Part shown: piece by piece, positions 35,050-64,000 of the stretch
How positions within the stretch are numbered: the stretch's first letter is position 1
Layout of the letters: each line of letters starts with the position of its first letter
From: Pseudoxanthomonas kalamensis DSM 18571
GTDB taxonomy: Bacteria; Pseudomonadota; Gammaproteobacteria; Xanthomonadales; Xanthomonadaceae
Length of the DNA stretch: 64,000 bases
NCBI RefSeq assembly: GCF_010211745.1
Contig: NZ_PDWQ01000006.1
Location: 124,001-188,000, forward strand
Direction: 5' to 3'
Position numbers and translations under genes: made by a program
Notes under the pieces: model-generated
Seen by the model: only the letters and a program-made list of their open reading frames with translations
Told to the model about the DNA's origin: nothing
Database searches by the model: none

Positions 35050-35796
35050 ATGAAGATTCTGGTCGCCTACAAGCGGGTGGTGGACTACAACGTCCGCATC
35101 CAGGTCAAGCCGGACGGTTCCGGCGTGGTCACCGAGGGCGTCAAGCTCTCGCCCAACCCCTTCGACGAGATCGCGCTGGAAGAGGCCCTGCGCCTGCGCG
35201 ACAAGGGCATCGCCACCGAGGTCGTGGTCGCCACCATCGCCCCGGCCGACGCCCAGGCCCACCTGCGCAACGGTCTGGCCATGGGCGCCAACCGCGCCCT
35301 CCACGTGGTCACCGACCAGCCCATCCAGCCGCTGACCGCCGCCCGCACCCTGCTCAAGCTGGTCGAAAAGGAGTCGCCGGACCTGGTGATCCTGGGCAAG
35401 CAGGCCATCGACGACGACGCCAACCAGACCGGGCAGATGCTGGCCACGCTGTGGAGCCGCCCGCAGGCGACCTTCGCCAGCAAGCTCGAGATCGCCGACG
35501 GCAAGGCCACGGTGACCCGCGAAGTCGACGCCGGCCTGGAGACGCTGGAAGTCGACCTGCCGGCGGTGGTCACCACCGACTTGCGCCTGAACGAGCCGCG
35601 CTTCATCAAGCTGCCCGACATCATGAAGGCCAAGAGCAAGCCACTGGAGACGCTGCAACTGGCGGACCTGGGCGTGGAGTCTGGCGATGCCCTCAAGACC
35701 ACGGCCTACGCCCCGCCGGCCAAGCGCAGCAAGGGCGTGATGGTGAAGGATGCGGCCGAACTGGTCGCCGCACTCAAGCAGAAGGGGTTGTTGTAA
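35050..35796 (+). CDS. etfB: Electron transfer flavoprotein beta subunit
   Basis: 248 residues. Starts [17 protein letters not shown], with the AMP-binding region later in the chain. The beta subunit pairs with EtfA to carry electrons from acyl-CoA and other dehydrogenases to ETF-ubiquinone oxidoreductase. The ETF beta signature region is near [17 protein letters not shown]. It overlaps etfA by one base. In Xanthomonas this pair marks one edge of the LPS locus. Confidence 0.97.
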
Positions 35797-36734
35797 TGGC
35801 CAAGGTACTTGTCATCGCCGAACATCTGGACGGCAAGCTCAACGCCTCCACCTCCAAGACCGTCAGCGCCGCGGCCGCCCTGCAGCCCGAGGCGATCGAC
35901 GTGGTCGTGCTGGCCGACGATCCGTCGGCCGTGGCCGCCCAGGCCGCCGGCATCGCCGGCGTGTCGAAGGTGCTGGCCGTGGCCCATCCGGCCAACGCCC
36001 AGGCCGTAGCCCAGGTGCTGGGCCCGCAGATCGCCGAGCTGGCCGCCGGCTATACCCATGTCTTCGGCCCCTCGACCACCTTCGGCAAGGACCTGGTCCC
36101 GGTCGTGGCCGCCCTGCTCGGCGTCAGCCAGGTCTCGGACGTGATGACGGTGGAGGGCCAGACCACCTTCACCCGGCCCATCTATGCCGGCAACGCCATC
36201 ATCACGGTCGAGGCCCCAGCCGGACAGACCGTGGTCGCCACCGTGCGCACCGCCTCGTGGCCGGAAGCGGCCCAGGGCGGCAGCGCCACGGTCGAAGCGG
36301 TCAGCCCCTCGGCGACCCTGCCCACCCATACCCGCCACCTCGGCTTGTCCGCGGCCAAGTCCGACCGCCCCGACCTGCAGAGCGCCAAGCGCGTGGTCTC
36401 CGGCGGCCGCGGCGTCGGCTCGGAAGAGAACTTCAAGATCATCTACGCCCTGGCCGACAAACTCGGCGCTGCCGTCGGTGCCTCGCGCGCCGCGGTCGAC
36501 GCCGGCTACGTTCCCAGCGACCTGCAGGTCGGCCAGACCGGCAAGATCATCGCCCCCGAGCTGTACATCGCCGTCGGCATCTCCGGCGCGATCCAGCACC
36601 TGACCGGCATCAAGGACGCCGGCACCATCGTGGCGATCAACAAGGACCCCGACGCCCCGATCTTCGAGGTCGCCGATATCGGACTCGTTGGTGATCTGTT
36701 TGCACTGCTGCCGGAAATGGAAGCCTTACTTTGA
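35796..36734 (+). CDS. etfA: Electron transfer flavoprotein alpha subunit
   Basis: 312 residues. ATG 35796 shares its A with the etfB stop codon. The C-terminal FAD domain shows [14 protein letters not shown], the signature [19 protein letters not shown] and [15 protein letters not shown]. The last 60 or so bases shift to a less GC-rich codon use (GGACTCGTTGGTGATCTGTTT), so the left boundary of the variable island may fall in the extreme 3' end of this gene. Confidence 0.97.
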
Positions 36735-42039: not shown

Positions 42040-42044
42040 GTGGA

Positions 42045-42049
42045 CCTCC
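42045..42049 (-). promoter_or_regulatory. Ribosome binding site deciding the GTG start of the metalloprotease
   Basis: GGAGG on the minus strand, five bases before GTG 42039. The longer reading frame opens with TTG codons that lack such a site. Confidence 0.75.
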
Positions 42050-42278
42050 GTGCATTTACGTTTTATGAACAAGGAACTTCAAGCATATGCGCAACTCGGC
42101 ACCAAATGCAGCCAAGCGCCCCCTGCGGCTTCTGAGGAGGAGCCTCCCAATATTAGACAACAAGCATGTCTTGAAGATGTGAACCCACTCACGGGTTGCC
42201 CGAAGGGCTTCATTCGCATGATCCTGCCGGCACCAGCGGGAACCGGTATCATCCCTTAGCCCACCAAGACCATGCCCC

Positions 42279-43238: not shown

Positions 43239-44970
43239 GCCCGAACCAGCATCGGGATTCCCCTTACGACAGGCCTTGTCATCGCTATTCCGACCGGAAT
43301 TTCTATTGGCGCTTGCGCTTGCCATATACACTTTTTCCAGTGCCTGGATACAGGCCGACACCACTCCCGTCGGGGCTCCACCCGATGAATGGGCACATAT
43401 CAGCTATATAGACGACATCTACACAGGCAAAGGCCTGATACCCGACTACGCCAACGCCACGATACTGCCTAGCCGAAGCCGCGGAAACTACCTGGGCCAC
43501 CCGCCGCTTTACTACACCGCTTCCGCATTGGCCGGCAAGACGCTTGGCTGGGACGCCCCGTCCGAGAACCCGCTTCCCTACAGGCTATTCAGCGCCACCC
43601 TGTTTTCGCTCGGCATGGGCCTCTGGATCCTGGCCGGGAAAAACCTCGGGCTGAATTCCACCACACTTGTCGCCATGGTTGCTGGAACCATGGCAATTCC
43701 CATGTTCCCCTACCTTGCTGGCAGCATCAACAATGACAACCTTGGCTATCTTTCCGTGGCCATTTCAGGCTTCGGTGCTAGCCTTCTTAGGAAAAACTCC
43801 CGAGCGGCATTCTGGATAGCCGCAGCAGGGCTTGCAATGGCGCTCTTAACAAAAGCGACGGCCGGATTGTTCCTGTTGATATTTCTCGGCATTCTCCTTG
43901 GCTTCCACCTATATTCCTACAGGTCTCGCAAAGAGTGGATCCATGCAATTGCCCCCACCATGATGGTGATCGTCATTGCAGGCACCTACTTCATTCCTAC
44001 GGTAATACACCATGGGAGTGCCTTTCCGAAAAGCGCCGAACTTTATACCGAGCTGGGACCACCTGACAGCCCAGTGGGACTGACTGAATCCGCCGCCGAA
44101 TCCTTCAGACAGATGTGGGCACGTCTTCCCATGATCGCCTCGCACCAGTCCCTGATCGTGTTCGATAAGCATGACACGCACGTATTTTATGCCATGCTGA
44201 TACTTGCAACACTGGCGTTTCTCGCATCTATCAGTTTCCCGCATCACCGACGACAGGCACGATCGTCGCCCACGGCATGGTACGGATATGCAACGGCAGT
44301 CGCTTTCCTGGTAGCGATGTTGGCTACCATGCTCGTCCATTTCATTGTCGTGTTTCGCGGATACCAGCTGCATGGAGTGTTCGCCGCATTGCAACCCCGC
44401 TATTACAACTATGCATTGCCTGGATTTTTCGTCCTGGCCTTCCAGGCATGGAGAAATAATGCGATTGTTCGTAGCCTGTTCGTAGGCTACTGCTTGACTG
44501 CTTCGTACCTGATTGCCATTTCTCCGCCACGACTCACCTTCTCACAGTCAGCGAAGTTCACCGAGCCCGCCATCATGGAAATACACATTCCAGCATTCCC
44601 CCCTGCCAGTTCCTCACGGCCAACGATCCTTAATGCCCCAGCTGGCCATGTGGACAGCTTCAATATCAAAAGCGGGAATATCGAAGTTCGTGGATGGGGC
44701 ATCGATGCCAGCCGGAAAACCCCCGCCGTGCGCATCTGGATACTCCTGGATGGACAGTCGATCGGGACCATTCCAACAGGCCTCTCCCGTCCGGATGTTG
44801 CCAACGCCCTGCATTCGCCGCCCGCCATGAGGTCCGGATTCAAGGCTAAACTGGTTCTAGACAAAAATGACTTGGACCCTTGCCGTGTACAACTTGCCGC
44901 TGAACAGGCCGATGGTTCACTTACACCAATACGAAACAGGCATTGTCAAAACCGAATTGATGGGAGATAA
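43228..44970 (+). CDS. Multi-spanning GT-C-like membrane protein with C-terminal GW/RPDV module
   Basis: 580 residues. Residues about 20-455 hold ten or more hydrophobic helices. Early loops carry GAPPDEWAHISYI and YLGHPPLYY, the acidic and HPPL motifs of PMT/ArnT-like or DUF2142 membrane glycosyltransferases that use polyprenyl-phosphate sugars. The periplasmic C-terminus (473-560) is a soluble module with VRGWGID, SRPDV at 521-525 and GFKA at 538, which also occurs in Wzt and in the 471-residue protein at 47747-49162. It starts within the GT2 gene and converges with the minus-strand half of the island. Confidence 0.8.
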   Translation: MHGEPEPASGFPLRQALSSLFRPEFLLALALAIYTFSSAWIQADTTPVGAPPDEWAHISYIDDIYTGKGLIPDYANATILPSRSRGNYLGHPPLYYTASALAGKTLGWDAPSENPLPYRLFSATLFSLGMGLWILAGKNLGLNSTTLVAMVAGTMAIPMFPYLAGSINNDNLGYLSVAISGFGASLLRKNSRAAFWIAAAGLAMALLTKATAGLFLLIFLGILLGFHLYSYRSRKEWIHAIAPTMMVIVIAGTYFIPTVIHHGSAFPKSAELYTELGPPDSPVGLTESAAESFRQMWARLPMIASHQSLIVFDKHDTHVFYAMLILATLAFLASISFPHHRRQARSSPTAWYGYATAVAFLVAMLATMLVHFIVVFRGYQLHGVFAALQPRYYNYALPGFFVLAFQAWRNNAIVRSLFVGYCLTASYLIAISPPRLTFSQSAKFTEPAIMEIHIPAFPPASSSRPTILNAPAGHVDSFNIKSGNIEVRGWGIDASRKTPAVRIWILLDGQSIGTIPTGLSRPDVANALHSPPAMRSGFKAKLVLDKNDLDPCRVQLAAEQADGSLTPIRNRHCQNRIDGR

Positions 44971-44978
44971 ATCCTGCG

Positions 44979-47738
44979 TCAGGCAGTCCTGGGAGGGAAT
45001 GCCAAGTCCTCCCCCCAACCCGTGAGGGCCAGATTCGGGTTGTAAGCAGGGTCATGCTCAAGGACATCTTTCCAGCGCTCTTGCATGAACCTTACTTCGG
45101 AGTGGAAGCGCGCCAGGCGATCTTCGCTTTCATCAGCCCCACGAGTTGCCGACTCGTGATGTACGAGTTCCGCGAACGGGGTCCAGAGATTTCGATATCC
45201 AGCCTCACCAACCCGCAAGCAAAAGTCAACATCGTTGAATGCGACTTTCAGGCGTTCATCCAACCCGCCGACAGACTCATAAACACTACGGCGGATGACC
45301 AAGCAAGCCGCAGTCACTGCGGATAAATTTTGCGCTACGAGTGCACGGGCGCCATGCCCAGGGTAACCCTTGGGAGAGTGGCAATACGCGTGGTTGGCAA
45401 CTCCGCCCACCCCCAATATCACGCCGGCATGCTGAATGTTGCCATCAGGGTAGTACAACATCGCACCAACTGCACCAATCTCTGGACGCAATGCGTGAGC
45501 AGCCATCTCGCTCAACCAGTCCTGTTTAACCACCTCAATATCGTTGTTCATTAAGCACAGCAATTCGCCATCACAGTGTCGAACCGCGAAATTATTGATG
45601 GCGGAAAAGTTGAATGGATACGGATAAGACAACACGCGCACCTTGGGGTACGTTGCCAGTTTAGCCAGATATTGCAGTGCATCTGGCTCTTCCGACCCAT
45701 TGTCGACGACTACGACCTCGAAGTTCGAATACTTCGTTTTCGACAATAGGCTTTCAATGCATGTCTCAAGCAGGCCTGCCCTGTCGCGGGTGGGAATAAC
45801 GATATTCACTTTAGGTTGTGGAGACGGCAGCGGCCATACCACGCGATAATGTCCATGTGGCAACCCCTCAACCGCTGCGCCCGGGCACGCCTTGCGCATG
45901 TGATCGTGCACCGCTTTCAGGCCTGCGTCTGCCGCATAATCCTTCTCGTCCCGGTGCAGCGCCGTAGAACCTTCTATGGCACGCCAGTGGTAAAGAATCT
46001 TCGGGATATGTGCAATCTGTTCCGCATGCAAAAACGAAGTGCAGCGCAGGAAAAGGTCATGATCCTGGCTGCCCTCATAGCCCTTGCGAAATCCACCAGC
46101 CTCCCGCGCAAGTGCAGTGTCGATCACCGCCAGATGGCACAAGTAGTTCTGTGACAGCAGAAGGTCAGGATTCCAGTCCGGTTTGAAGTTGGGATGAAAC
46201 CTTTCCCCCAATTCGTTTATCTTGTCCTCGTCCGAATAGATGAATCGGACACTTGGATCATTGACAATCACCTCGGCGACGCTTGCCAACGCGTGCACCT
46301 GCAATTCGTCGTCATGATCCAGAAGGGCAACGAATTCGCCTTGGGCCATCTGCAGCGAAGTATTGGAACTTTCCGCGATGTGCCCGTTCTTGTCGCGGTA
46401 CACTACGCGGATCCGGTCATCCTTCGCCGCGTATTCGTCCAGTACCTTGCGCACGTGCCTCGAAGAGGACGCATCGTCGGCAATGCACAACTCCCAGTTC
46501 CGGTACGTCTGCCGCAATACGCTATCCAGGCATTGCCGCAACCACCTCTCCGGCGTCTCGTATACCGGAAGCAGGACCGAGATCAGTGGTCCGTTTCCCA
46601 TGCCTGCGGCACGCTTCTGCAGCCTGTCCAGGTCATCACCGTGCACAGTGTCGTAACTCGAAACCCAACGCCGGTAATCAAGCCGACCCGGTACGTAGCG
46701 TGCCCTTAAGCGGTCATGCCGTTGCTGTACCGCCGCCTGAAGTCCGGACGCTCTTACTGTATAAAGGAAATCCACAAATGCTTTACGGATTTCTTTCCAA
46801 TCGGTCTCGTCACCCTCCGATTCACTGCGCAGCAAATCCCACAATGCACGCAGTCTCGATATCCTCAGCAAGCGGCAATCCTGCAGACTGAATTCCGTAC
46901 AGTTTGTAGTTGGGTCGAAGCGGAGTGACTGCACATCATGCGCCAACAGTACCAACCCGCGAATCCAACCGGTCTGGTCAGGCGTAGGCAACTCGATGGC
47001 GTCCGCCTGGATGTGGCCACTGCCGTAATCCGGGAAAAGGCACGGGGCAATGATCCGGCGCCTGTCGTCCAGCAAACGACATTCGAACCAGTACCAACCT
47101 GCAGGCAGCCGGAATGTGCTGCCCATCACTAGAAATTGCGGGTCGTTGCCCGTGCACTTCCATGAGTTGCCGCCCAGTTCCGATACAATGCGCTCCAACT
47201 GCGATACCGGGACCAGCCATGTCATCATGGCTGGTCCCAGAACGCTTCGGCGCAGTTGCAGTTTCGAATGCAACTCCTGACGGTCTATTATCCCATTGGC
47301 GTCAAGATAGTGCCGCCACACGCCATCCTTGATGCCGGACATGCGCGAAACAACGGCCGCGTGCACCAGATTCCAGCAGGCACGCAACGCACCGACGATA
47401 CCGGCGGCGGAAAATCGGCCCGGTCGGCCCGCCAACACCTGCCAGGCAGCCTTCCATTTACTGATGGGCCGGGGATCGAAACCAGACAGCGCGTCACTCA
47501 GCACGCCGTCATCATCATCAACCTCGAACTCGATATTTAAGGCCGGGCTACGCAACGGGAAGACCAGTTGCAGACGCTTCACTCCCCCGGTGTCCACTTG
47601 AACGACGATAGACTCGTTGCTCGGGGCTCCGTCCCCGCTGTCGTAATCCGGCTTGATGACAAGACGACCGTCTTTCACCGGCGCATTCAGGCCTACATCG
47701 ATGGCATACCAACCAGCCGGTCTCCTGTCTGCATCCAT
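44979..47738 (-). CDS. Large bifunctional GT2 glycosyltransferase
   Basis: 919 residues from ATG 47738; a TTG four codons earlier is possible. The N-terminal 300 residues contain two related segments, each opening PAGWY and followed by a P.Y.SG stretch, likely beta-sandwich repeats. Two GT-A domains follow: the first starts near 386 with SVLLPVYETPERW, IADDAS and LLDHDDEL; the second near 650 with IVIPTRDRAG, VVDNGS and CLMNNDIEV, then AFNDVDFCLRVGEAGYRN. The pattern resembles rhamnosyltransferase-like O-antigen enzymes that add two sugars. It is last in the minus-strand run and starts nine bases after the preceding stop. Confidence 0.9.
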   Translation of the reverse strand: MDADRRPAGWYAIDVGLNAPVKDGRLVIKPDYDSGDGAPSNESIVVQVDTGGVKRLQLVFPLRSPALNIEFEVDDDDGVLSDALSGFDPRPISKWKAAWQVLAGRPGRFSAAGIVGALRACWNLVHAAVVSRMSGIKDGVWRHYLDANGIIDRQELHSKLQLRRSVLGPAMMTWLVPVSQLERIVSELGGNSWKCTGNDPQFLVMGSTFRLPAGWYWFECRLLDDRRRIIAPCLFPDYGSGHIQADAIELPTPDQTGWIRGLVLLAHDVQSLRFDPTTNCTEFSLQDCRLLRISRLRALWDLLRSESEGDETDWKEIRKAFVDFLYTVRASGLQAAVQQRHDRLRARYVPGRLDYRRWVSSYDTVHGDDLDRLQKRAAGMGNGPLISVLLPVYETPERWLRQCLDSVLRQTYRNWELCIADDASSSRHVRKVLDEYAAKDDRIRVVYRDKNGHIAESSNTSLQMAQGEFVALLDHDDELQVHALASVAEVIVNDPSVRFIYSDEDKINELGERFHPNFKPDWNPDLLLSQNYLCHLAVIDTALAREAGGFRKGYEGSQDHDLFLRCTSFLHAEQIAHIPKILYHWRAIEGSTALHRDEKDYAADAGLKAVHDHMRKACPGAAVEGLPHGHYRVVWPLPSPQPKVNIVIPTRDRAGLLETCIESLLSKTKYSNFEVVVVDNGSEEPDALQYLAKLATYPKVRVLSYPYPFNFSAINNFAVRHCDGELLCLMNNDIEVVKQDWLSEMAAHALRPEIGAVGAMLYYPDGNIQHAGVILGVGGVANHAYCHSPKGYPGHGARALVAQNLSAVTAACLVIRRSVYESVGGLDERLKVAFNDVDFCLRVGEAGYRNLWTPFAELVHHESATRGADESEDRLARFHSEVRFMQERWKDVLEHDPAYNPNLALTGWGEDLAFPPRTA

Positions 47739-47746
47739 TCTCCCGC

Positions 47747-49162
47747 TCAACCCCGCAGACGCTCGATGTCGCCGGATGCCAATAACTCCCCAACCGTCTT
47801 GGCAATGCTCAACGGATAACCTTGTGCTACGCCTTCATGAGCTGGCAGAACCTCAAAACCATCGAGAATACCGTCATCCACATCTTCCGGATCCAGTGAC
47901 AGATCAGCCACGAAGCCAAGCAGGGCGTGACTGGTGGACATGCTTTTCTGCACATCGGGCCGCAACTGCTTCTCGAACCTGTCCACCAGGCAGGACTTCG
48001 TGCCTGCCTTTACCGTCAGTTGTTGCGGCAGCGAACCATTGCCATCCACCGCCCAGCCACGGATCCGCAACGTGTTGCCGGTAAGCTTCAACTCATCAAC
48101 GAATCCCACCGCCGCATATCGGCTGTCCTCACCAACAACAGGATCCGGCAGAACATCGCCAAGCGAGAGATAGAATGCTTCGGCCCGTTTCGCCAGCTCC
48201 TCGCCAGGCAAGGGACTCGGCCCGTATCGCTCCCAGCATATCTGCACGGGCAGATAGCCCGATTCCGACAATATACGCTCGACGTCAGCGTGATACTGAG
48301 CCGGCACATATCCATCTACCGCAAAATCCTTGCCATCGGCCTCACTCGCCCACAAACGAACCAGCTCATCGCCCAGCCCCTGGTCGAAGACCTGCTGAAT
48401 CGCCTGGTCCAGCGTGAATGGAGAGTAGTTGCGGGACAAGGCTTCGTACAATGCTGGCGATGCATCCAACCTGCCCTGGGCGACAAGCGACGCTTTCTGG
48501 TCACCAGAAACTATCAGGACATTTGCCGGCTCGAACAACGAAGCGGCGATACTGGACTTTCCATATCCAGGGGGTTGCATCAAAAGGTAGGCCAGCGGCC
48601 GACGACGGCTTACATGGATCACATGCCGGCGCACCGGGTCGCCGGCCTGGGCAATACTGGGTCCCATCCATTTCCAAGCATACCCCCGCAATATCTCACG
48701 CAGCTTCGGCATGGTCGGAAAGTAGCGCTCGTCGATGCCGCGCTCCACCTTGACCCATTCGCTCTTGTCGGAGGAAGCAATGCCAAGTTCCAACACCAGC
48801 ACACCATTGACTGCCAGCAGGTTCACCAGACGCCCAATCAGTTCCGCCTGGTCCTCAGCGTAATGCAGGGCGGAAGCCAGCAGGATCACGTCAAACGGGC
48901 CTGCAGGCAATTGGTCCCAACTCCGGTTATGAAACTCGCAATCGGGAAAGCGCTGGCGGGCACGCTCGATGAAAAGGCGGCTGTAGTCGACACCCACCAC
49001 TCGTTGCGCACCCTGAGACTTGGCAAACCCGCAAAAGAACCCCTCGTTGCAGCCTACGTCCAGGAAGTCGCGGCCCTCCAGATCAGGCAGAAGCAGCGCC
49101 TTGAGCTTGTCAAGTGTGTGGGAAGCCCCGGCTGCATCCGGGAAAGACTGGTATTGGGCCAT
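47747..49162 (-). CDS. Methyltransferase / P-loop kinase-like / GW-RPDV module fusion
   Basis: 471 residues. Residues 30-180 are a class I SAM methyltransferase: FLDVGCNEGFF (motif I), VVGVDYS, and FDVILLASALHY. Residues 190-335 begin AYLLMQPPGYGKSSIAASLF, a P-loop of the adenylate-kinase style (PGxGKxS) after a hydrophobic strand, followed by VLIVSGD; I read it as an NTP-binding kinase-like domain. Residues 350-430 are a module with RIRGWAVD, LRPDV at 400-404 and GFVAD, shared with Wzt and the GT-C-like protein. The combination is new to me. A chain-terminating methylation/phosphorylation role is a hypothesis (see findings). Confidence 0.75.
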   Translation of the reverse strand: MAQYQSFPDAAGASHTLDKLKALLLPDLEGRDFLDVGCNEGFFCGFAKSQGAQRVVGVDYSRLFIERARQRFPDCEFHNRSWDQLPAGPFDVILLASALHYAEDQAELIGRLVNLLAVNGVLVLELGIASSDKSEWVKVERGIDERYFPTMPKLREILRGYAWKWMGPSIAQAGDPVRRHVIHVSRRRPLAYLLMQPPGYGKSSIAASLFEPANVLIVSGDQKASLVAQGRLDASPALYEALSRNYSPFTLDQAIQQVFDQGLGDELVRLWASEADGKDFAVDGYVPAQYHADVERILSESGYLPVQICWERYGPSPLPGEELAKRAEAFYLSLGDVLPDPVVGEDSRYAAVGFVDELKLTGNTLRIRGWAVDGNGSLPQQLTVKAGTKSCLVDRFEKQLRPDVQKSMSTSHALLGFVADLSLDPEDVDDGILDGFEVLPAHEGVAQGYPLSIAKTVGELLASGDIERLRG

Positions 49163-49262: not shown

Positions 49263-50876
49263 TCAGGTTCCGGTTGGCTGCCTACCCTCACTGGCGCCGT
49301 ACCGGATGAAATGCAGGAGTGGATCGATATCAGCCTGGCGGACGTCGGGATAGGTAGCCAAGTAGTATGCCGGATCAAATCCCGGTCCGGGCATCCGCCC
49401 TTCCCTCCAGCCATGGACATGGTAATGCTCGGCCGCATCCTTGCCAGCCTGTCTGACGTCCTCGTGCATCGCCAGATACCAATCGGCATCGAACCATTGG
49501 CTTCCCCGGATCTCAGCGAGTTCATGCTCCTGCACAAGTCCTGCCCTGATCTTGGCCCTACGCTTAAGGATGGACTTCGGCACCATCCTCCAGACCAGCC
49601 TTCGAACCAGAATCGACAGTAGGGCACGGCTGCGGACAATCGACAAGTCTGGCCCACGCTCGATACTGGCCCGCAATTCGGCTTGCACCGATCCCAGCTG
49701 AAATTTCAACGCATCCACTTCACGATCCGACTCCATCAGACGCAGATAGTACCGCTCCAGCTCCTCCTGGACCTGATGCAGCTGGGTCAGCAAAAGCTCG
49801 TTTTCCTCACCAGCACTGCGGAGCTTCTCATACTGCGACACGCTCTGTTCTTGCAGTCGCGCCAGCGCATTGGCATTCACTGCTTTTTCATCTTGCAGAG
49901 CGAGTTGGCTCCGGGAAAACTCATCGCCTACCCGGCGAACTTCGCCATGCAAACGCAACATCACCTGGGAAACGAAGCTACGTTGACGCAGTAGGGCCTC
50001 CCAAGCCGCAGCCGCCGCGCCCTGTGCCTCGCGCGGCGGCGCGTCCAGCGGCAGGTTGGCGGCGGATTGAAGTTCGGCGTAGAGCTGCATGACAGCGGGA
50101 TGGTGGCCGAGTACATCGTCAATGAGATAACGCTCTGTCGGATCGGCCCGCAACAGAGCAGCTGCTTGCTGCGGCTCGACGCTCGTGTCGTGAAAGGCTG
50201 AGCTCAGCTCTTGCTGCAACGGCATTGGCGAGAACGACAGATTGTCGCCCGATGGGCCAGCCAATGCCGCCACACTCGGGGAGGGCGATAGGGGCGTATC
50301 CAGCAAGGGCTGCAGTTCCTTCACATAGCGATCCGTGGCCCGCTGTACCTGCCGGGCATGAACCAGCAAGCTGCGCCCCGCGTGACGCAGATGGAAGCGC
50401 AGTAGTGCCCCGTTATAAGCAACCCAATTGTCCAGCAGGCGGTGAAGATCCTGCCCTGATGGGAGCATCTCACCTCCCTCCCCCCGCCCGCGGGCCGCAT
50501 CCATCAGCACGCGATGAGGGTCGTCATAGACCAGCACAAAGGTGAGTTGCGGATCCAACCCTTCCCAATAGTCCAGTGCGTAAATGGCCTGTGGGTCGGC
50601 CCAGCCCCAGAGGGGTTGCTCCAGGTTGCCGAGCATCAAATCCAACGCCATGCCTTGCCACACGGGGGCGGCTTCGATCTGGGAAAAATCCTCTTCATCC
50701 GTCACACTCTCAATCGGCGCCACCTTGTGCGCCTTGCACAAGATGGCGGTAATGGCCTGGGGCAACAGGCCCTCGCGTTGCGACGGCAACGCCGTGGCCA
50801 TACCGTATTCTTGCAGCAGGGACAACACGCTCCCATACCCAGATGCCGGATGGCCGACAATGACGATCTTATTCAT
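49263..50876 (-). CDS. Sulfotransferase-like protein with coiled coil and C-terminal WYL/DV repeats
   Basis: 537 residues. It opens IVIVGHPASGYGSVLSLLQE, a PAPS-loop-like motif in the position of GxHRSGTS of sulfotransferases, with a second region FVLVYDDPHRVLMDAARGR resembling the 3'-phosphate site (R.P). Residues about 310-400 are strongly helical (coiled coil). The C-terminal 76 residues are two copies of a repeat, FDADWYLAMHEDV...GWREGR and FDPAYYLATYPDV...GASEGR, which also occurs in the 958-residue glycosyltransferase at 57496-60372. Whether the sulfotransferase site is active is unclear because the usual Arg is replaced. The IS3 remnant lies upstream. Confidence 0.7.
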   Translation of the reverse strand: MNKIVIVGHPASGYGSVLSLLQEYGMATALPSQREGLLPQAITAILCKAHKVAPIESVTDEEDFSQIEAAPVWQGMALDLMLGNLEQPLWGWADPQAIYALDYWEGLDPQLTFVLVYDDPHRVLMDAARGRGEGGEMLPSGQDLHRLLDNWVAYNGALLRFHLRHAGRSLLVHARQVQRATDRYVKELQPLLDTPLSPSPSVAALAGPSGDNLSFSPMPLQQELSSAFHDTSVEPQQAAALLRADPTERYLIDDVLGHHPAVMQLYAELQSAANLPLDAPPREAQGAAAAAWEALLRQRSFVSQVMLRLHGEVRRVGDEFSRSQLALQDEKAVNANALARLQEQSVSQYEKLRSAGEENELLLTQLHQVQEELERYYLRLMESDREVDALKFQLGSVQAELRASIERGPDLSIVRSRALLSILVRRLVWRMVPKSILKRRAKIRAGLVQEHELAEIRGSQWFDADWYLAMHEDVRQAGKDAAEHYHVHGWREGRMPGPGFDPAYYLATYPDVRQADIDPLLHFIRYGASEGRQPTGT

Positions 50877-54007: not shown

Positions 54008-54040
54008 AACGAAGTCCGATTTCGACCAATCCGATAGCGC

Positions 54041-55697: not shown

Positions 55698-57509
55698 TCA
55701 GTCGTAGTTGCGCGCCCAGTACAGGCCCTTCTCGCTGGGCTTGCTTGTCGCGATCGCGCGGATCGAGCGCTTCTTCCAGTATGTGCGCCAGAGTTCGATG
55801 ACGGCTTTTTCCTCGGGGCGGCTGGCGTCATCCAGCACCACGTCCACTTCGTGCCGCGCAAAGTATTTGAACACCAGCGGAACCGCCGGATAGCGGGCAT
55901 TGGGGCAGGTTGAGCCAGGCGGGCCGTCCACCAGCACCAGCACGCGCTTGGGCGGCGCGCCCAACTGCTTGGCAAGCGTGGCAAGCGTGGCATCGCAGTC
56001 GTAGTGCAGATAGTGCCCCGTGTCGTCCTGCCAATCCACCAGCGGTGCGTGGTTCAACGCCACCCATTCAAGCAGGCCCTGGGTTTCGAGCATGGCCTTG
56101 GTCTTGTTCAGATAGAGCTTGTCGTGCTCAAAAGTGCACACAGGACGGGGGGCGCGCACCGGCAGCGACTTCACGCCCTTGCTGGCCTTGGCCGCCCTGG
56201 GCAATGCCTCCGGTCGGCTAATCTTCAAGGTCCTGGCAAACAAGGCCGTGGAGGTACCGCTGCCGAACTCGATGATGAGATCGTGCCGGCGCTCGCGGAT
56301 GTGTTCGATGAGAAAGAGGCCAATATCCGGACTGATAGGCCAACCGTGGAAATTCGAAAGACTGTCGCCGTTGCTTAGATAGTTCTGGATGGAGATGAAG
56401 TCTTCGATCTGCTTGACGCTGTTCGCCAGGCTTTTGTCGAAACTGGCACGCAACTGCTTTTCCACGTCATTGATGCTTTGCTGGCAAGCCTCCAACTGCT
56501 TGGACTGAGCTTGCTGCAACTGCTCCCGCAGCGCCTTCTGCGCCTGTTCGGATACCTGCTTCGCCTGATCTTCCGCCTGCCTGGCCGACCTGCTCGCCTC
56601 CTGATGTGCCTCCATCAGGTCCGCCTTTTCCTTTGCCCACGCCTCCTGCGCTGACTTGAGCTGCTCTTGCGCTTGCCGCAACTGCTCCTGCAACGCCTTC
56701 TGCGCCTGCTCGGATGCCTGCTTCGCCTGATCCGCCGCCTGCCTGGCCGACTCGCTCGCCGCCTGATAAGCCTGCTCGGCGGCCTTCAGCCGATGGGCAG
56801 TATCTCGGACATACAAAACATGCGCCAAGGCAGGGTGGCGCTCGGCCTGACCGTGTATGCAGCGCAGGCCGACCGCATGCAGCACCTGGTCCACCGCCTG
56901 TTGATCGGCCAGCAGTTCGGGGGACAGATCGCTGGCCACGCGCACCAAAGCCACGTCCAGTTGCGGCAACAGTTTCGCGCCGCCTTGCAGCAAGGCAGCG
57001 GCAGGCAGGCAATCCAACACTAGCCAGTTGATCTGCCCCCCGGCCTCGGCGTACAGGGCGTCCAGGGTGGTGGCGTCTTCGATAAGGGCGTCCTGCTCGG
57101 CACCCAGATGCGGCCACAGTTTTTGCAGGCTCTGGGCCGGCAGTAATCCGCTTTCGGCCGGGTTGCTGACACGATGGAAGGTTGCAGTTCCCGCCGCTGG
57201 AGCCACCACATCACGCCAGGAAGTCCAGCCGCCATCAGCGTCAAAGTTGCGCCGCAAGTTCCGATACTGGTGTTCGTCGCCTTCAACAAGGTGCACTGCC
57301 ACACCGGCAGAGGCGACACCCCGACTTTGCAGCCATCGCACCCAGGAACCTTTGCCCGCGCCCGCGCCAACGAGCATCACCCCCTCAGGAGGCAGTACGA
57401 CGCGCAGGACATCCAGCCACGCAGTCATGGGTAGCCGTTTGGTGTTGCCGATTTTCGCTTCGACCTGGTTCAACAGATTGCCTTTGTTCGCTCGCTCAGG
57501 AGGTATCAC
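55698..57509 (-). CDS. Two methyltransferase-like domains joined by a duplicated coiled coil
   Basis: 603 residues from GTG 57509; ATG 57428 is a plausible later start. Residues about 40-200 look like an FkbM-type methyltransferase (VMLVGAGAGKGSW, VHLVEGDEHQYRNL). Residues 238-375 form a long Ala/Gln/Lys/Glu coiled coil in which SARQAADQAKQASEQAQKAL recurs 54 residues later with few changes. Residues 395-603 form a second domain with IIEFGSGTSTALFARTL, CTFEHDKLYL and LVDGPPGSTCPNARYP, like SAM-dependent methyltransferases. The start overlaps the upstream glycosyltransferase gene by 14 bases. A length-measuring role of the coil is a hypothesis. Confidence 0.75.
   Translation of the reverse strand: MIPPERANKGNLLNQVEAKIGNTKRLPMTAWLDVLRVVLPPEGVMLVGAGAGKGSWVRWLQSRGVASAGVAVHLVEGDEHQYRNLRRNFDADGGWTSWRDVVAPAAGTATFHRVSNPAESGLLPAQSLQKLWPHLGAEQDALIEDATTLDALYAEAGGQINWLVLDCLPAAALLQGGAKLLPQLDVALVRVASDLSPELLADQQAVDQVLHAVGLRCIHGQAERHPALAHVLYVRDTAHRLKAAEQAYQAASESARQAADQAKQASEQAQKALQEQLRQAQEQLKSAQEAWAKEKADLMEAHQEASRSARQAEDQAKQVSEQAQKALREQLQQAQSKQLEACQQSINDVEKQLRASFDKSLANSVKQIEDFISIQNYLSNGDSLSNFHGWPISPDIGLFLIEHIRERRHDLIIEFGSGTSTALFARTLKISRPEALPRAAKASKGVKSLPVRAPRPVCTFEHDKLYLNKTKAMLETQGLLEWVALNHAPLVDWQDDTGHYLHYDCDATLATLAKQLGAPPKRVLVLVDGPPGSTCPNARYPAVPLVFKYFARHEVDVVLDDASRPEEKAVIELWRTYWKKRSIRAIATSKPSEKGLYWARNYD
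56517..56598 (-). repeat. Coiled-coil coding repeat, copy B
   Basis: Direct repeat with 56679-56760, offset 162 bases (54 codons), in the same frame, with scattered mismatches. It encodes the second SARQAEDQAKQ...KALREQL block. Confidence 0.8.
56679..56760 (-). repeat. Coiled-coil coding repeat, copy A
   Basis: Partner of 56517-56598. Loss or gain of one 162-base unit would change the coil by exactly 54 residues without a frameshift. Confidence 0.8.
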
Positions 57510-60372
57510 CGTATCGCTGATGGCCTTGATTATATGAACAAGTCTGCGCCTGCTGCAGGATCGACCCCGCCGGCTGGGCATGCGCGATGGCTTCCAGGCA
57601 GTTCCGATAGATCGCCTGATATTGGGCAGCCATCGCCACGGTGCTGCCATTACGGCCGGGGCCAGCCTGCCAACGACCGACTTCCGCGATGCGCTCGGCA
57701 CGATCGCCTGGTTCGTCGGACAGGCGGATCAGCAACCCATATAGCGCCACCGGGTCGGTGGGAAATTCCAGCAACCACCCCCCACCCTGTTCACGTATCC
57801 GCTCCCCGACCGCACCGATGTCGATACCGACCACCGGCAAGCCAGCGGCCCAGCACTCGGTCAGCGTATGACAGTACGTCTCGGGCCAGATAGAAAGAAC
57901 CGCGGCCAAGTCGGGAGCGATGGCCTCGACCCGATCAGCAAATTCCCCGCGATCATAGGCCCCATGTTCGATTACCAAATCTTCAAGTGCTGACGGGCTG
58001 TTTCCCAGCACATGCAATTCGATACGCCCCTCCACATCCAGAGCCTTGAGACCATGAACCAACTCAATGCCCTTGTGGACCGACAGGTTGCCAGGCAAGA
58101 GCACACGAAGCGGCCTGCCAAGCCGAGCCTGTACCGGCTCCGGCCCCGGCAGGAACCGTTCGAAATCCCGGCCATGAGGAATGATGTGAAAGTTGTCAGC
58201 TCGGGCGGCGACCCCGGGCAGCGCCTCGCAGATCAGCCGGCGCGCGGTTGGCGACGTCGTGACGAACGCCGACACTCCGGCCAACACCTGCTGCATGCGG
58301 CGCTGCCAATGCGCCAAACCGGCAGGGGTCATGGGCAATAGCGTCGGGTCGTGATGCCACAACGGGTTGGGCGCGTGACCAGGCACCCCAGACGCATGGA
58401 AAACCGCATCATTGTCCAGCAAATGCACGCTCGGGCAAACACAGTAGTAATCATGGAACGACATTACGACAGGGATACCTAGGCTACGTGCCGTTTCAAC
58501 CAAGCCAAGCCCGTGCCAGACCAGATGCCGAACATGCATCAGATCGATCCCAAGCCGCAACAGCAATGCGCACACGGCCTGGTCGTACTCTAGGCTCACG
58601 TGACTGGCGAAACGCAACGGCTCGGACAGCGTGATGCGTTCGATCAGTTCATAGCCGTTCTCACCTGCACGCAGCAGCTCCAGCCTGTGGCCGTCGCTGG
58701 CCAATGCATAGGCGTCGAATCGGCCCGCAACGGCGCGCATCAGGTCGGCGTTGGTCTGCGGCGTCCCTCCTATGCGCGTCGATATCACGTACAGGATGCG
58801 CGGTTTCGGATGGTATCCGCCGGAGGCCAGACGCTGGAACTGACGCCCGATCCGGTAACGCGCCTCGATGAAACCCGGTGATACACTGATCGCGCGAATC
58901 GCCGCTTCGTAGTGCGGATGGCGTTCGCACACGCGCCTGAAACCGACCCCGGCCAAGGCGTCCCGACGCTCACTGAACGAAGCCGAGCGCCGGTGCCGTA
59001 CGTAGACTGTCGGCTCCACCCAATGCGTCCAGCCAGCGGCAGCAGCCCGCATGCACAGATCGTTTTCCTCGCCATAGCCCTCCGGGAATGCGATCTCGTC
59101 GAAACCACCGACGGCATCGAGCATTGCACGCCGCATATACAGGCAGAAACCGTTGCCGGTCGGAACCTCGAATGGCTGGGCCGCTGTATCCTCAACGGCG
59201 CGAGCCAGCGCATCGCCATCGATCATCCCGGATGGCGGACGATTGCCGGGTGCAGGCACGGAGAATTCACCAGCCGCGTTGGACACTGCCGTTACCGTGC
59301 CAATACGCTCGTGGGCTGTAGCGGTTGCCTTGAGCCGGCGCAACCAGTGCGGTCCAACCACCGTGTCGCTGTTGAGCAGGACGACGTCGTCACGGCTTGC
59401 CAGCACTAGGCCGCAGTTCACCGTTCGCGTGTAGCCTAGGTTCTGCGCGTGGCGCTCGACCCGGATACCCAAGCATCCTTCCAGTCGTTGCAACAATTGC
59501 GCAATGCCGGGGTCGGTGCTGGCATCATCGATCACCAGCAGGCTGTCCTGTTCGCCGAAATGTGTATGTTCCAGCAACGCGTCCAGGCATTCGGCAACGG
59601 CTTCTACGGCATTGTGTACCGGGACGATCACCGTGCAGTGGACCCTGCGCAAATCGGTGACGGACGCCTCGCCAAGCGCACCCGGAGACGGCAGCATCGT
59701 TCGCCGCCCGAGCATCAGCCCGTAACGCAGGAAATGGTCTAGCGGCGCCAGCGGGGAAGCCGCGGCATCCACGTAACGCGCCCGATAGTAGTGCCCATCA
59801 AAACGCGCGGAGGTGTCGAAATCGCTCCTCAACGGTGAAGCCAGGTAGTGGACCAGGGGGTTGGTGTCATCGCCCGGTGACATGTGCACAGACTGGTAAT
59901 AACGAGTATCGAAATAGGGATTCGGCAGGCGCCCTTCGCCAGCACCGTATTCGAGATAGTGCTGCAACGGCTCCATGCCAACCGACCGCACGTCGTCGTA
60001 CGTCGCGAGGTAGTAGTCGGCATCGAACAATGCCGTATCGGCGATCATGGCTCGCTCTTTTTCAAATGGAGCCGGGACCGCATGCGGCGGCGGCGCGTCG
60101 ATCCGGTAGCGCCGCCTGCCTTCGACGCGCCCAAACTGCAGGTAGTGAAGCAGCGGGTTCATGTCGGCAGCTGCGACATCAGGGTTGACCGACAGATAAT
60201 GGTTACTGCTGAATTCAGGCCCGGGATCCAGGTCAGCGCTGGCGCCAGCGCTCAGGTAGTGGGCGATAGCATCTTCGATCGTCGACACGCCCGGGTGTCT
60301 ACGCAGGTACCAGTCAAGATCGAAGAGGCCGCTGTCCACGACCATGGCAATGTCGTCCGCGGAAGGATTCAT
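57496..60372 (-). CDS. WYL/DV-repeat protein with GT2 and GT4 domains
   Basis: 958 residues. The first 225 residues contain five copies, some worn, of a 35-residue repeat (FDLDWYLRRHPGV..., HYLSVNPDV...FGRVEGR, FDADYYLATYDDV...GAGEGRLP and two more). A GT-A domain covers 246-500: VIVPVHNAVEAVAECLDALL, IDDAST, LLNSDTVVG, and GYGEENDLCMRAAAAGW. A GT-B domain (GT4) covers about 524-950: ILYVISTRIGGTPQTNADLM, LPGNLSVHKGIELV, and SIWPETYCHTLTECWAAGLPVV. Such fusions add successive sugars or glycosylate with two specificities. The start overlaps the preceding broken gene by ATGA, as if once coupled. Confidence 0.9.
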   Translation of the reverse strand: MNPSADDIAMVVDSGLFDLDWYLRRHPGVSTIEDAIAHYLSAGASADLDPGPEFSSNHYLSVNPDVAAADMNPLLHYLQFGRVEGRRRYRIDAPPPHAVPAPFEKERAMIADTALFDADYYLATYDDVRSVGMEPLQHYLEYGAGEGRLPNPYFDTRYYQSVHMSPGDDTNPLVHYLASPLRSDFDTSARFDGHYYRARYVDAAASPLAPLDHFLRYGLMLGRRTMLPSPGALGEASVTDLRRVHCTVIVPVHNAVEAVAECLDALLEHTHFGEQDSLLVIDDASTDPGIAQLLQRLEGCLGIRVERHAQNLGYTRTVNCGLVLASRDDVVLLNSDTVVGPHWLRRLKATATAHERIGTVTAVSNAAGEFSVPAPGNRPPSGMIDGDALARAVEDTAAQPFEVPTGNGFCLYMRRAMLDAVGGFDEIAFPEGYGEENDLCMRAAAAGWTHWVEPTVYVRHRRSASFSERRDALAGVGFRRVCERHPHYEAAIRAISVSPGFIEARYRIGRQFQRLASGGYHPKPRILYVISTRIGGTPQTNADLMRAVAGRFDAYALASDGHRLELLRAGENGYELIERITLSEPLRFASHVSLEYDQAVCALLLRLGIDLMHVRHLVWHGLGLVETARSLGIPVVMSFHDYYCVCPSVHLLDNDAVFHASGVPGHAPNPLWHHDPTLLPMTPAGLAHWQRRMQQVLAGVSAFVTTSPTARRLICEALPGVAARADNFHIIPHGRDFERFLPGPEPVQARLGRPLRVLLPGNLSVHKGIELVHGLKALDVEGRIELHVLGNSPSALEDLVIEHGAYDRGEFADRVEAIAPDLAAVLSIWPETYCHTLTECWAAGLPVVGIDIGAVGERIREQGGGWLLEFPTDPVALYGLLIRLSDEPGDRAERIAEVGRWQAGPGRNGSTVAMAAQYQAIYRNCLEAIAHAQPAGSILQQAQTCSYNQGHQRYGDTS

Positions 60373-61611: not shown

Positions 61612-62772
61612 CTACGGCAATTCATGCATCACACCCGCCGCCAGCCGTAAACTGGTGCCGGCAATGCCATCCGGATCTCCGCCAAGCACCCTGAAGTCCT
61701 TGCCGAGATCCCAGATCCGCAAAGCTCCGGGCACCATCACCTCGGCACGGAAGCCGCATTCGCCTTGGCTCAGGCCCAGATGGCCGACCACATCCGGACG
61801 ACTGACCCGTTCGTAGCTCTCGGCCAGATAACGCTGGCCATCAACCTGCAGGGCAAGGCCCTTTGGCAGGGCGCCCTCGGTGTCAACCATCCAGCCTTTA
61901 ACCAGGAATCGACCATCGCCTTGGGCGATGACCGATTCGACTACCCCGTATGTGCGCGCGGCAGTCTCAGCCTGACTGCCGCCCCCTCCCTCTGCCAACA
62001 TGGCATCGGCATGAGGATTCTCACGCAACTCGGCAAGTAATTCATGATAGCGACGTAGTGAGGACACGATGTCACCCGCATGGATCAACCTGCCACCTTC
62101 CAGCACAATGCCCTTGTTGCAAATGTCACGCAACAGGCCGACGCTATGGCTAGCCAAGACCACGACCTTGCTGCCGCCGACACGACTGCGCATGCGCTCC
62201 TTGGCTTGGGCCATGAAATTGGCATCACCGGTGCCCACCCATTCATCCATCAACATAATGTCATGCTGTACGGAAGTGGAAATAGCAAAGCCCAGGCGCA
62301 TACGCTGCCCAGACGAGAGCGTACGCAGTAGATGATTGGCCTTGTGGGCTAACCCGGCAAACTCCAGGATGCTTTCCATCTGCGCCTTCAGCAATGCGGA
62401 TTTCATGCCCATCGCAACACCACGCAGGATGATGTTTTCCCGCACAGTAGCGTAACCGTTGAAACCCAGCGCCATGTTTAACAGCGCCTGGCAGCTTCCG
62501 AATATTTCGATAGAGCCATTGGTGGGCCGATATACACCATTGAGAACACGTAACAAGGTGCTTTTACCGGCGCCGTTGCGGCCGAGAATGGCCAAACGAT
62601 CACCCTCGCCTATATCCAGCGATACGCTGTCCAGAAGCTTCACCAGCCGGCGCTGCGGCGGACTGAACGCAGCGTTGCGGAACAGGCTCCCCCACCCTTT
62701 GACTTCGTGCTCACGCTGAAAATAGGCCGGAACTTCCAAACTCAGGTTGCGAACGCGTATATGCACACTCAT
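61612..62772 (-). CDS. wzt: O-antigen ABC exporter ATPase Wzt with C-terminal recognition module
   Basis: 386 residues; ATG 62772 is four bases after the wzm stop. Walker A GRNGAGKST at 64-72, signature LSSGQRMRL from 152, Walker B IMLMDEW at 172-178, H-loop in ASHS (His209). The MSVHIRVRNLSLEVP start and the ALLNMALGFNGYATVRENI stretch are typical of polysaccharide exporters (KpsT/Wzt/TagH). Residues 275-386 form an extra domain with VKGWMVD, SRPDV at 324-328 and GFRAEV, shared with two other island proteins. In E. coli O9a and O8 the Wzt C-terminal domain binds the modified chain end; here it is a different-looking sequence in the same place. Confidence 0.92.
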   Translation of the reverse strand: MSVHIRVRNLSLEVPAYFQREHEVKGWGSLFRNAAFSPPQRRLVKLLDSVSLDIGEGDRLAILGRNGAGKSTLLRVLNGVYRPTNGSIEIFGSCQALLNMALGFNGYATVRENIILRGVAMGMKSALLKAQMESILEFAGLAHKANHLLRTLSSGQRMRLGFAISTSVQHDIMLMDEWVGTGDANFMAQAKERMRSRVGGSKVVVLASHSVGLLRDICNKGIVLEGGRLIHAGDIVSSLRRYHELLAELRENPHADAMLAEGGGGSQAETAARTYGVVESVIAQGDGRFLVKGWMVDTEGALPKGLALQVDGQRYLAESYERVSRPDVVGHLGLSQGECGFRAEVMVPGALRIWDLGKDFRVLGGDPDGIAGTSLRLAAGVMHELP

Positions 62773-62776
62773 ACCG

Positions 62777-63598
62777 TCATATCCACAAGGGTACGTAACG
62801 TGCATAACGGCGATAGAGGAAACCAGCCAACAGGAGACCTATGACGGTACTTATCCCGATAAACCACAATGTTAGCGGTTCGACCGGATCTCCCATGATC
62901 GGATTGCGGAACAGCGAAACGTAGTGGAAAAAAGGATTGAAGCGCATTAAATGACCGCGGATGCTATCCACCGGTATCGATTCCGGGTACCAGATGATTG
63001 GCGTCAGCAGAAACAGGAAGATTGACGCTTGTCCGATCAATTGCCCGAAATCTGGGAAGCGCGCGCCCACCAGCGAGAACACCACACTTATCCAAAGCGC
63101 ATTCACGTAGATCAGAAATGCCGCCACCGGGGCTAGCGCCAAGCCCAGCCATGACACCTGACCGAATAGCACAAGCGCCACCGTGGTGATCGGCAGATAG
63201 GCACAAAAATCGAAACACGACTTCGCTAGTGCCTCCAGCAGGTAATCGGTCATGCGCACCCGGCCATCCATGATGAACGAACTGCTGGCATTGAAGATGT
63301 TCGCACTTCCAATCACCGTCGACATAATGGTGCGAAAAATCATCGCGCCAAGCGCGATATGCGCCGCGAATTCGGAGATCGCCCTGCCGTACAGGCTGGC
63401 AAAGAAAGAACCAAGCCCGAACACATAGATCAAGGCCGGCGTCATCAACCAAAGCACCCCCAGACGCGACTTGCGTGCGCGCACCAAAATATCCAACCAG
63501 CTAGATAGCGCCCAGAACTCCGGATTGCGCAGACTTTGCCAAAGATCGTGCCAGAACATCCCCGAACTACTGTTGCTACCAGCATGCGAGATCGTCAT
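62777..63598 (-). CDS. wzm: O-antigen ABC exporter permease Wzm
   Basis: 273 residues. ABC-2 type permease with six hydrophobic helices. It has the pattern of polysaccharide exporters: FWHDLWQSLRNPEFWALSSW, RKSRLGVLWLMTPALIYVFG, and LTPIIWYPESIP followed by FNPFFHYVSLFRNPIMG. Moves the undecaprenyl-diphosphate-linked glycan across the inner membrane with Wzt. It begins 14 bases after metB, and base composition changes at once, marking the right edge of the island. Confidence 0.92.
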   Translation of the reverse strand: MTISHAGSNSSSGMFWHDLWQSLRNPEFWALSSWLDILVRARKSRLGVLWLMTPALIYVFGLGSFFASLYGRAISEFAAHIALGAMIFRTIMSTVIGSANIFNASSSFIMDGRVRMTDYLLEALAKSCFDFCAYLPITTVALVLFGQVSWLGLALAPVAAFLIYVNALWISVVFSLVGARFPDFGQLIGQASIFLFLLTPIIWYPESIPVDSIRGHLMRFNPFFHYVSLFRNPIMGDPVEPLTLWFIGISTVIGLLLAGFLYRRYARYVPLWI

Positions 63599-63612
63599 AT
63601 TCTGCTCGATCG

Positions 63613-64000
63613 TCACGACAGCGTGCCCTCCAGGTCGGAGCACAGGTCGCCAACATCCTCCACCCCCACGCTCAGCCGCACCAGTCCGTCGGTAATGCCG
63701 AGGCGATGGCGGCGTTCGGGGGGGACGGAGGCGTGGGTCATGACGGCGGGGTGGTTGACCAGGCTTTCCACGCCGCCGAGGGATTCGGCCAGGGTGAAGA
63801 TCTCGAGTTTCTCGCAGAATGTGCGCGCGGCGTCGAATCCGCCTTTCAGCACGATCGAGATGATGCCGCCATAGCCCTGCATCTGCCGGCCGGCCAATGC
63901 GTGCTGCGGATGCGATTCCAGACCCGGATAGATCACTTTCTCGATGGTCGGCTGATCCTGCAGCCATTCGGCCAGCGCCAGTGCGTTTTCGCAGTGCGCC
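63613..64000 (-). CDS. metB: Cystathionine gamma-synthase/lyase family PLP enzyme, C-terminal part
   Basis: 128 C-terminal residues; the 5' part lies beyond the window, so the PLP lysine is not seen. AHCENALALAEWLQ, VIYPGLESHPQHALAGRQM, ESLGGVESLVNHPAVMTHAS and GLVRLSVGVED are conserved in the Cys/Met metabolism PLP family (MetB, MetC, CGL). The symbol follows the Xanthomonas locus, where metB flanks the LPS cluster; synthase and lyase cannot be told apart from this fragment. Confidence 0.88.
   Translation of the reverse strand, partial: AHCENALALAEWLQDQPTIEKVIYPGLESHPQHALAGRQMQGYGGIISIVLKGGFDAARTFCEKLEIFTLAESLGGVESLVNHPAVMTHASVPPERRHRLGITDGLVRLSVGVEDVGDLCSDLEGTLS

Follow-up and report, generated by a model that had tools for sequence, protein, structure and literature searches.

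A methyltransferase fused to a P-loop kinase-like domain in a xanthomonad O-antigen locus, a putative chain terminator

The window analysed here, a 64,000-nucleotide stretch of the Pseudoxanthomonas kalamensis DSM 18571 genome, contains a glycan gene locus lying between an ETF pair and a metB-like gene, with the ABC transporter components Wzm and Wzt encoded inside it. The interval from the metB-like gene to etf is the known site of LPS loci in xanthomonads (see also PMC524487, PMC2238763). The gene under study, termed X, is located within this interval, in the following arrangement.

35125..36311, plus strand: ETF genes (etfA/etfB type; PF01012 at C127:159125-160311), one border of the LPS locus
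43228-44970, plus strand: DUF2142-like membrane protein (match below cut-off), ending in a β-module common to Wzt and X
44979..47750, minus strand: 923-residue protein with two GT2 domains, directly downstream of X; the listed ORF overlaps the X stop by four bases
47747..49162, minus strand: X, the methyltransferase/P-loop kinase-like/β-module protein (ORF of 471 residues, ATG at 49162)
49263..50876, minus strand: 537-residue neighbour of X, coiled-coil-like in part, with two YLxxxPDV-type repeats at its C-terminus
55698..57701, minus strand: protein with an FkbM-like N-terminus (below cut-off), a long coiled-coil-like segment and a C-terminus that is Rossmann-like by eye; candidate scaffold or ruler
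61612..62805, minus strand: Wzt, O-antigen ABC transporter ATPase (Pfam ABC_tran; galactan_ABC_ATP at E = 1e-49, below its cut-off)
61684-61950, minus strand: C-terminal module of Wzt, detected by the module HMM
62777..63967, minus strand: Wzm, ABC-2 permease (ABC2_membrane just over cut-off; galactan_ABC_perm at E = 5.6e-40, below cut-off)
63619..64000, continuing beyond the window end, minus strand: Cys/Met-metabolism PLP enzyme (metB-like; PF01053 at C127:187619-188743, E = 8.4e-155), the other border of the LPS locus

The initial annotation had placed X in an ABC-transporter-dependent O-antigen setting, which is borne out by Wzm and Wzt within the metB-like-to-etf interval; it had located the gene correctly at 47747..49162 and omitted the strand, which is minus. 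X lies approximately 12 kb from wzt. The window Wzt has no PF14524 (Wzt_C) match at E-values up to 0.01, and the listed Wzm ORF runs into the metB-like gene, so that the true start of wzm probably lies further downstream. The 537-residue neighbour of X has no Pfam match at E-values up to 1; its assignment as a sulfotransferase is unsupported, as among the rows listed only the C-terminal repeats and part of the coiled coil align with such proteins. Among the glycan genes of this locus there is also one for a metallopeptidase of the reprolysin-like type (M12B) that carries FG-GAP repeats (39577-42072, minus strand). Two Wzy_C (WaaL-type ligase/polymerase family) genes that score over the cut-off are located on other contigs of the genome, C73 and C105.

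The polypeptide encoded by X is made up of a methyltransferase domain, a P-loop domain and a C-terminal module, with the following landmarks.

48608..49162, minus strand: class I SAM-dependent methyltransferase domain, residues 1–185 (Pfam, Foldseek)
49034-49066, minus strand: SAM motif FLDVGCNEGFF, residues 33–43
48128..48607, minus strand: P-loop NMP/gluconate-kinase-like domain, residues 186–345 (conservation, Foldseek)
48551-48586, minus strand: Walker A LLMQPPGYGKSS, residues 193–204, with the P-loop lysine K202
48500-48502, minus strand: D221, conserved
48314-48316, minus strand: D283, conserved in most homologues
47834..48115, minus strand: C-terminal β-module, residues 350–443 (pattern GFVDE..RGWAVD..RPDVQ..GF)

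X exceeds the cut-offs of Pfam models for methyltransferases (best Methyltransf_12, E = 2.8e-13), in agreement with the SAM site that the initial annotation had read in FLDVGCNEGFF. The AlphaFold2 model of the whole protein, calculated from a 41-sequence alignment, has a mean pLDDT of 92.4 and a pTM of 0.70, and the best 50 Foldseek rows for it are all methyltransferases, the top matches being CmoB, XrdM and toxoflavin methyltransferase (E = 4e-11 to 1e-9).

Homologues were collected by a scan with two peptide patterns over one genome per species in 84,980 species, which detects only pattern-bearing relatives. The resulting 56 X loci are distributed among Lysobacteraceae, Halomonas, Oceanimonas, Zobellella, Accumulibacter, Rhizobiaceae, Acetobacteraceae, Desulfovibrio and one archaeal bin; relatives are thereby found throughout Proteobacteria. 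The alignment termed A3 comprises 41 rows including the X of the window; near-duplicates (L009, L025, L026, L028, L029, L031–L035, L038–L041), a further five loci (L044, L052, L054, L064, L065), the fragments L023 and L061, L024, which is devoid of the SAM motif, and the divergent L068 and L070–L080 were left out of it. Residues D35, G37, C38, N39 and E40 of the methyltransferase domain are invariant in A3, a conservation that is partly circular because CNEGFFC, from the SAM motif, was in the search pattern; K202, D221, G201 and D283 do not belong to the patterns. R179, positioned between the methyltransferase and P-loop domains, is likewise invariant in A3 and is kept in 57 of 58 homologues (the 56 loci plus L023 and L024, aligned on A3); it is a candidate for the residue that would complete the kinase site. 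Mean pairwise identity among 16 Lysobacteraceae X proteins falls from 0.70 in the methyltransferase domain to 0.47 in the P-loop domain and 0.40 in the module. L024 (genome G051; 1156-2541) and L079 (Alkalimonas; 7878-9047) have lost the SAM motif while retaining the P-loop. The two activities thus need not go together, and these losses suggest that the kinase-like part is able to act by itself.

The P-loop domain is barely visible to standard family models. In the X of the window this region has no Pfam match at E-values up to 1 and no match among 25 of 28 NCBIfam families. In each of ten relatives that were scanned, P-loop models match this stretch, almost always below cut-off: nine match AAA_33 (best E = 8.4e-5, worst 0.32) and the tenth Zeta_toxin, the sole match above cut-off being a marginal one to PF00004 AAA in L053 (21.6 versus 21.2 bits). 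A profile built from 14 homologues and run against PDB sequences matched adenylate kinase 9 (E = 1.5e-7) and zeta toxin (E = 1.6e-5) over the P-loop stretch only; its best match was a 1,910-residue chain labelled CFAP276 (E = 7.6e-8), and unrelated chains also matched at weaker scores. The P-loop of the X in the window opens with Q instead of G or A, and some relatives have a canonical one (GTPGSGKS in L051).

In the P-loop domain G201, K202, D221, D283 and P287 are invariant in A3, K202 and D221 are present in 58 of 58 homologues, G201 in 57 (the exception being L070) and D283 in 48, the residue differing in L024, L070–L076, L078 and L080, where the alignment is uncertain. Kinases of the P-loop NMP class normally carry LID arginines; the homologue alignments contain no invariant arginine in the P-loop domain. 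The AlphaFold2 model of residues 186–471 (22 sequences) has a mean pLDDT of 87.7 and a pTM of 0.49. In a Foldseek search with it a single row falls under 0.001, that of 2rhm, a putative kinase (E = 6e-4); adenylate, gluconate and shikimate kinases also match, with probabilities near 1 and a TM to target of at most 0.45, and matches to different folds (RmlT, translation factors and Ig chains) are interspersed. These predictions support an adenylate/gluconate-kinase-like P-loop fold for residues 186–345. With the adenylate, gluconate and shikimate kinases and the AAA_33/zeta-type kinases the domain shares the Walker A GK[ST], the Asp after the second strand and the predicted fold; it differs from them in its matches below cut-off (with one marginal exception), in its fusion to a methyltransferase and in having no invariant LID arginine detected. 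The adenylate-kinase-style P-loop with Lys202 proposed initially thus holds, K202 being at the expected place, kept throughout and accompanied by kinase-like Foldseek matches; structure prediction, put forward as a check, gave a P-loop fold in the AlphaFold2 model. A chance match to the P-loop pattern is ruled out by the conservation and the predicted fold.

The C-terminal module is formed mainly of β-strands with short helices in the AlphaFold2 model. Ig-fold chains appear in the Foldseek search of residues 186–471 (for example 9b9k_L, probability 0.90; the query range of the matches is not given) and may correspond to this module. With an HMM made from the modules of X proteins, the window Wzt obtains 66 bits (E = 3.8e-20) at its C-terminus and the DUF2142-like protein 31 bits, so the module common to X and Wzt that had been described initially is real; the cap recognition by both proteins that had been read from it is not implied, as the module is widespread. 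A module HMM made from X and Wzt modules matches Wzt in 18 of 20 sampled loci of genomes without X, a figure that shows presence and not frequency because the loci were preselected: 19 such genomes had a Wzt match reaching at least residue 350, of which 18 were sampled (G317 was left out), all module-bearing, and two further loci were chosen for genus g20. The two Wzts lacking the module are those of L129 and L130. The module is also found on several proteins of glycosyltransferase size in these clusters, and six X homologues carry it with no module-bearing Wzt in the surrounding DNA examined (L037, L042, L043, L045, L049 and L057). The wider module HMM marks 31 of the 56 X-family loci; in L074–L076 the module is N-terminal to the methyltransferase instead of C-terminal to the methyltransferase–P-loop pair, so its link to that pair recurs. 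It appears to be an accessory module in general use in these glycan pathways, and its Wzt-like character was rejected as proof of cap recognition, given its occurrence on Wzts of genomes without X and on other proteins.

The association of X with Wzt is tight. X directly follows a module-bearing wzt in 17 of 17 Lysobacteraceae loci (L025–L036, L038–L041 and L062) and in 14 of 16 carrier genomes, two sets that overlap, the exceptions among the latter being the window and one contig end. The 16 carriers were found among 297 genomes of the family, in searches that score only some candidates per genome. A Wzt match at E-values up to 1e-40 is present in 80 of the 297, and all 16 carriers fall within the best 17, G140 being the single genome among these without X; the 64 genomes with a Wzt match that are not carriers, G140 included, have no X at E-values up to 1e-20.

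In the more distant relatives the setting changes. A set of 25 of 40 loci (L037 and L042–L080, omitting L058, L061, L062, L064, L069–L078 and L080) was searched for PF05159 (Capsule_synth, KpsC/KpsS type), which occurs in 13 of the 25 genomes: in eight (G329, G332, G334, G338, G339, G342, G343 and G353) it shares a contig with X and lies within 20 kb of it, and in five it is on another contig. The remaining 12 of the 25 genomes searched have no KpsC/S match. In part of its family X therefore accompanies both types of ABC-transporter-dependent glycan. The exporter of KpsC/KpsS systems is not known to read a cap, nor are KpsC/S capsules known to carry one at the non-reducing end; the occurrence of X in such clusters does not fit a cap read by Wzt alone.

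X itself has no coiled-coil-like segment by a crude home-made score, which in the window also flags the dual-GT2 protein and 51587-54040, and the longest helix in its model has 18 residues. Proteins combining a sulfotransferase motif with a coiled-coil-like segment lie within 8 kb of X in 7 of 17 carrier loci (L026, L027, L029, L033, L036, L040 and L041); in L038 an ORF close to the contig end carries the motif, and in the other nine (L031 being short) a search of all ORFs in the DNA examined around X did not find it. The two best-scoring Wzt matches without X are those of G140 and G202, both module-bearing. Directly after wzt, G202 encodes a Sulfotransfer_3 protein by Pfam (L112 9508-11511) and G140 a protein with a sulfotransferase motif, a long coiled coil and YLxxNPDV repeats (L111 9622-12210). 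These two proteins are candidate terminators that would cap with sulfate and contain their own ruler. With no ruler of its own in X and a separate coiled-coil protein nearby, another terminator is possible, and X may be an additional modifier or may work with a separate ruler.

The kinase domain of WbdD is protein-kinase-like. WbdD combines this fold with a coiled-coil ruler, whereas X has a P-loop fold, a C-terminal β-module and no coiled coil. The initial description of X as unlike WbdD is supported in this respect by the profile, the model and the Foldseek matches, all of which give a P-loop for its kinase-like domain. WbdD chains match X very weakly and in the methyltransferase part only (phmmer E = 0.15–0.2). 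What X has in common with the WbdD of Escherichia coli O9a and Klebsiella pneumoniae O3 is a methyltransferase and a kinase in one chain, encoded in an ABC-transporter O-antigen cluster; WbdD is described as phosphorylating and then methylating the end of the O9a chain (PMC3482155).

A parallel in composition is the K. pneumoniae O7 terminator, reported to phosphorylate and methylate the chain end, as shown experimentally, and to have an AmiN-like kinase and an Ig-like module (PMC11231755). Its ORF6-N is described there as consisting of a methyltransferase, an unannotated kinase, an Ig-like CBM, a coiled coil and GT2s (PMC11231755). X resembles it in the succession of a methyltransferase, a kinase or kinase-like domain without a family match and a further module, Ig-like in O7 and β-rich in X, and in belonging to an ABC-transporter-dependent O-polysaccharide system with orthologues in several bacterial groups (PMC11231755). 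The kinases differ in fold, that of O7 being AmiN-like and that of X giving P-loop kinase matches; the best 50 Foldseek rows for residues 186–471 include no match of the AmiN or phosphotransferase type. X thus belongs to neither the WbdD nor the O7 type by fold, and could work like both, given its context and composition. The convergent capping solution suggested initially is plausible, and it would not be the first, as O7 sets a methyltransferase–kinase precedent (PMC11231755). No P-loop chain terminator was found in the open-licence literature searched.

Within the same bacterial family, the O-antigen cluster of Xanthomonas campestris encodes WxcB, described as a putative kinase of unknown function similar to the methyltransferase and kinase domains of WbdD (PMC4878081). 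A wxcB insertion mutant of X. campestris is reported to be without O-antigen, with polar effects not excluded by its authors, and a wxcB mutant of X. euvesicatoria to show no LPS change (PMC4878081). No locus labelled Xanthomonas is among the 56 found by the pattern scan. The protein at L130 6450-8615 (minus strand, directly after wzt, genus g20) was considered as a WxcB candidate and dropped, having no WbdD match at E-values up to 0.01; by eye it combines a methyltransferase with a part resembling a glycosyltransferase, and it occurs in 1 of 297 genomes at E-values up to 1e-30.

The reading that we prefer, at a probability of about one half, is that X is a cytoplasmic bifunctional glycan-modifying enzyme and a putative (methyl)phosphate chain terminator of an ABC-transporter-dependent O-antigen pathway. 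The P-loop domain, through K202, D221 and D283, would phosphorylate the growing chain on a sugar hydroxyl, drawing the γ-phosphate from ATP and acting probably at the non-reducing end, and the methyltransferase domain would next methylate this phosphate or a nearby hydroxyl. The resulting phosphate/methyl cap would end polymerisation, and with it chain growth, before export by Wzm/Wzt, the C-terminal β-module probably binding the glycan and positioning the acceptor. The order of methyltransferase, kinase-like domain and β-rich module, which parallels the methyltransferase, kinase and Ig-like module of the O7 terminator (PMC11231755), supports this reading, as do the fusion of a methyltransferase to a P-loop domain, the retention of K202 and D221 in all 58 homologues and the predicted fold of a small-molecule or NMP kinase. 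It is further supported by the LPS locus with Wzm/Wzt, by the adjacency of X and wzt, by the position of the carriers among the best Wzt matches and by the proximity of KpsC/S in 8 of 25 genomes. It is weakened by the lack of a coiled-coil ruler in X, although all the Klebsiella systems reviewed in PMC11231755 possess a coiled-coil protein, and by the sulfotransferase-type coiled-coil proteins nearby, by the lack of an invariant P-loop arginine, the loss of D283 in 10 of 58 homologues and the modest Foldseek E-values, and by the loss of the SAM motif in L024 and L079, the KpsC/S clusters and the 12 of 25 genomes without KpsC/S. The chain-capping role proposed initially therefore stands as far as the fused domains, the O-antigen setting and the tight Wzt link carry it, and loses its argument from the module, with the KpsC/S homologues and the rulerless X also counting against it.

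That X is a WbdD or WxcB orthologue with a misread kinase part is highly improbable, given the P-loop in place of the protein-kinase-like domain of WbdD, the restriction of the WbdD matches to the methyltransferase part and the lack of a Xanthomonas label among the 56 loci; in its favour are the very weak match of that part itself and the description of WxcB as similar to the methyltransferase and kinase of WbdD and essential for O-antigen (PMC4878081). A division of labour also appears decidedly unlikely. In it the methyltransferase would produce an O-methyl cap, and the P-loop domain would bind nucleotides as a degenerate or regulatory unit, or would have a small-molecule precursor, nucleotide or sugar, as its substrate. 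This would account for the lower conservation of the P-loop domain (0.47 versus 0.70 in 16 homologues), the missing invariant LID arginine, the loss of D283 in 10 of 58 and the independent losses of the SAM motif in L024 and L079. The same two loci retain the P-loop without that motif, which argues for a functional P-loop domain, and K202 and D221 persist in all 58 homologues.

A stronger competitor, though still on the unlikely side, is that X decorates repeat units with an internal phosphate, methylphosphate or O-methyl group and terminates nothing, chain length being set by neighbouring coiled-coil proteins, either of the sulfotransferase type or the FkbM-like protein of the window. Coiled-coil proteins do lie near X or directly after wzt, and G140 and G202 possess a module-bearing Wzt and a sulfotransferase-type coiled-coil protein with no X; the X homologues in KpsC/S capsule clusters also favour decoration, the class of Haemophilus influenzae type b being described as without a chain-terminating residue (PMC11231755). 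It is opposed by the nine of 17 carrier loci in which no sulfotransferase-motif ORF was found (L031 being short) and by the methyltransferase–kinase pairs characterised so far, WbdD (PMC3482155) and O7 (PMC11231755), both of which are reported to act at chain ends.

Relatives of X are encoded next to sugar-export functions in various bacteria, so X may be a third independently evolved tool for the capping of exported sugar chains. We advance only tentatively, with the balance somewhat against it, the broader proposal of a third independently assembled class of methyltransferase–kinase terminators, built on a P-loop sugar kinase and distributed across Proteobacteria with both Wzm/Wzt O-antigens and KpsC/KpsS capsules.

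Chain termination sets the length of the O-antigen and in several systems constitutes the export signal read by Wzt. If X is a terminator, methyltransferases have been paired with three unrelated kinase folds (protein-kinase-like, AmiN-like and P-loop) to the same end, and uncharacterised proteins seen by standard family models as methyltransferases only would gain a testable function. On the broader proposal KpsC/S capsules would gain a non-reducing-end cap, and their clusters would allow one to ask whether such capsules can be capped.
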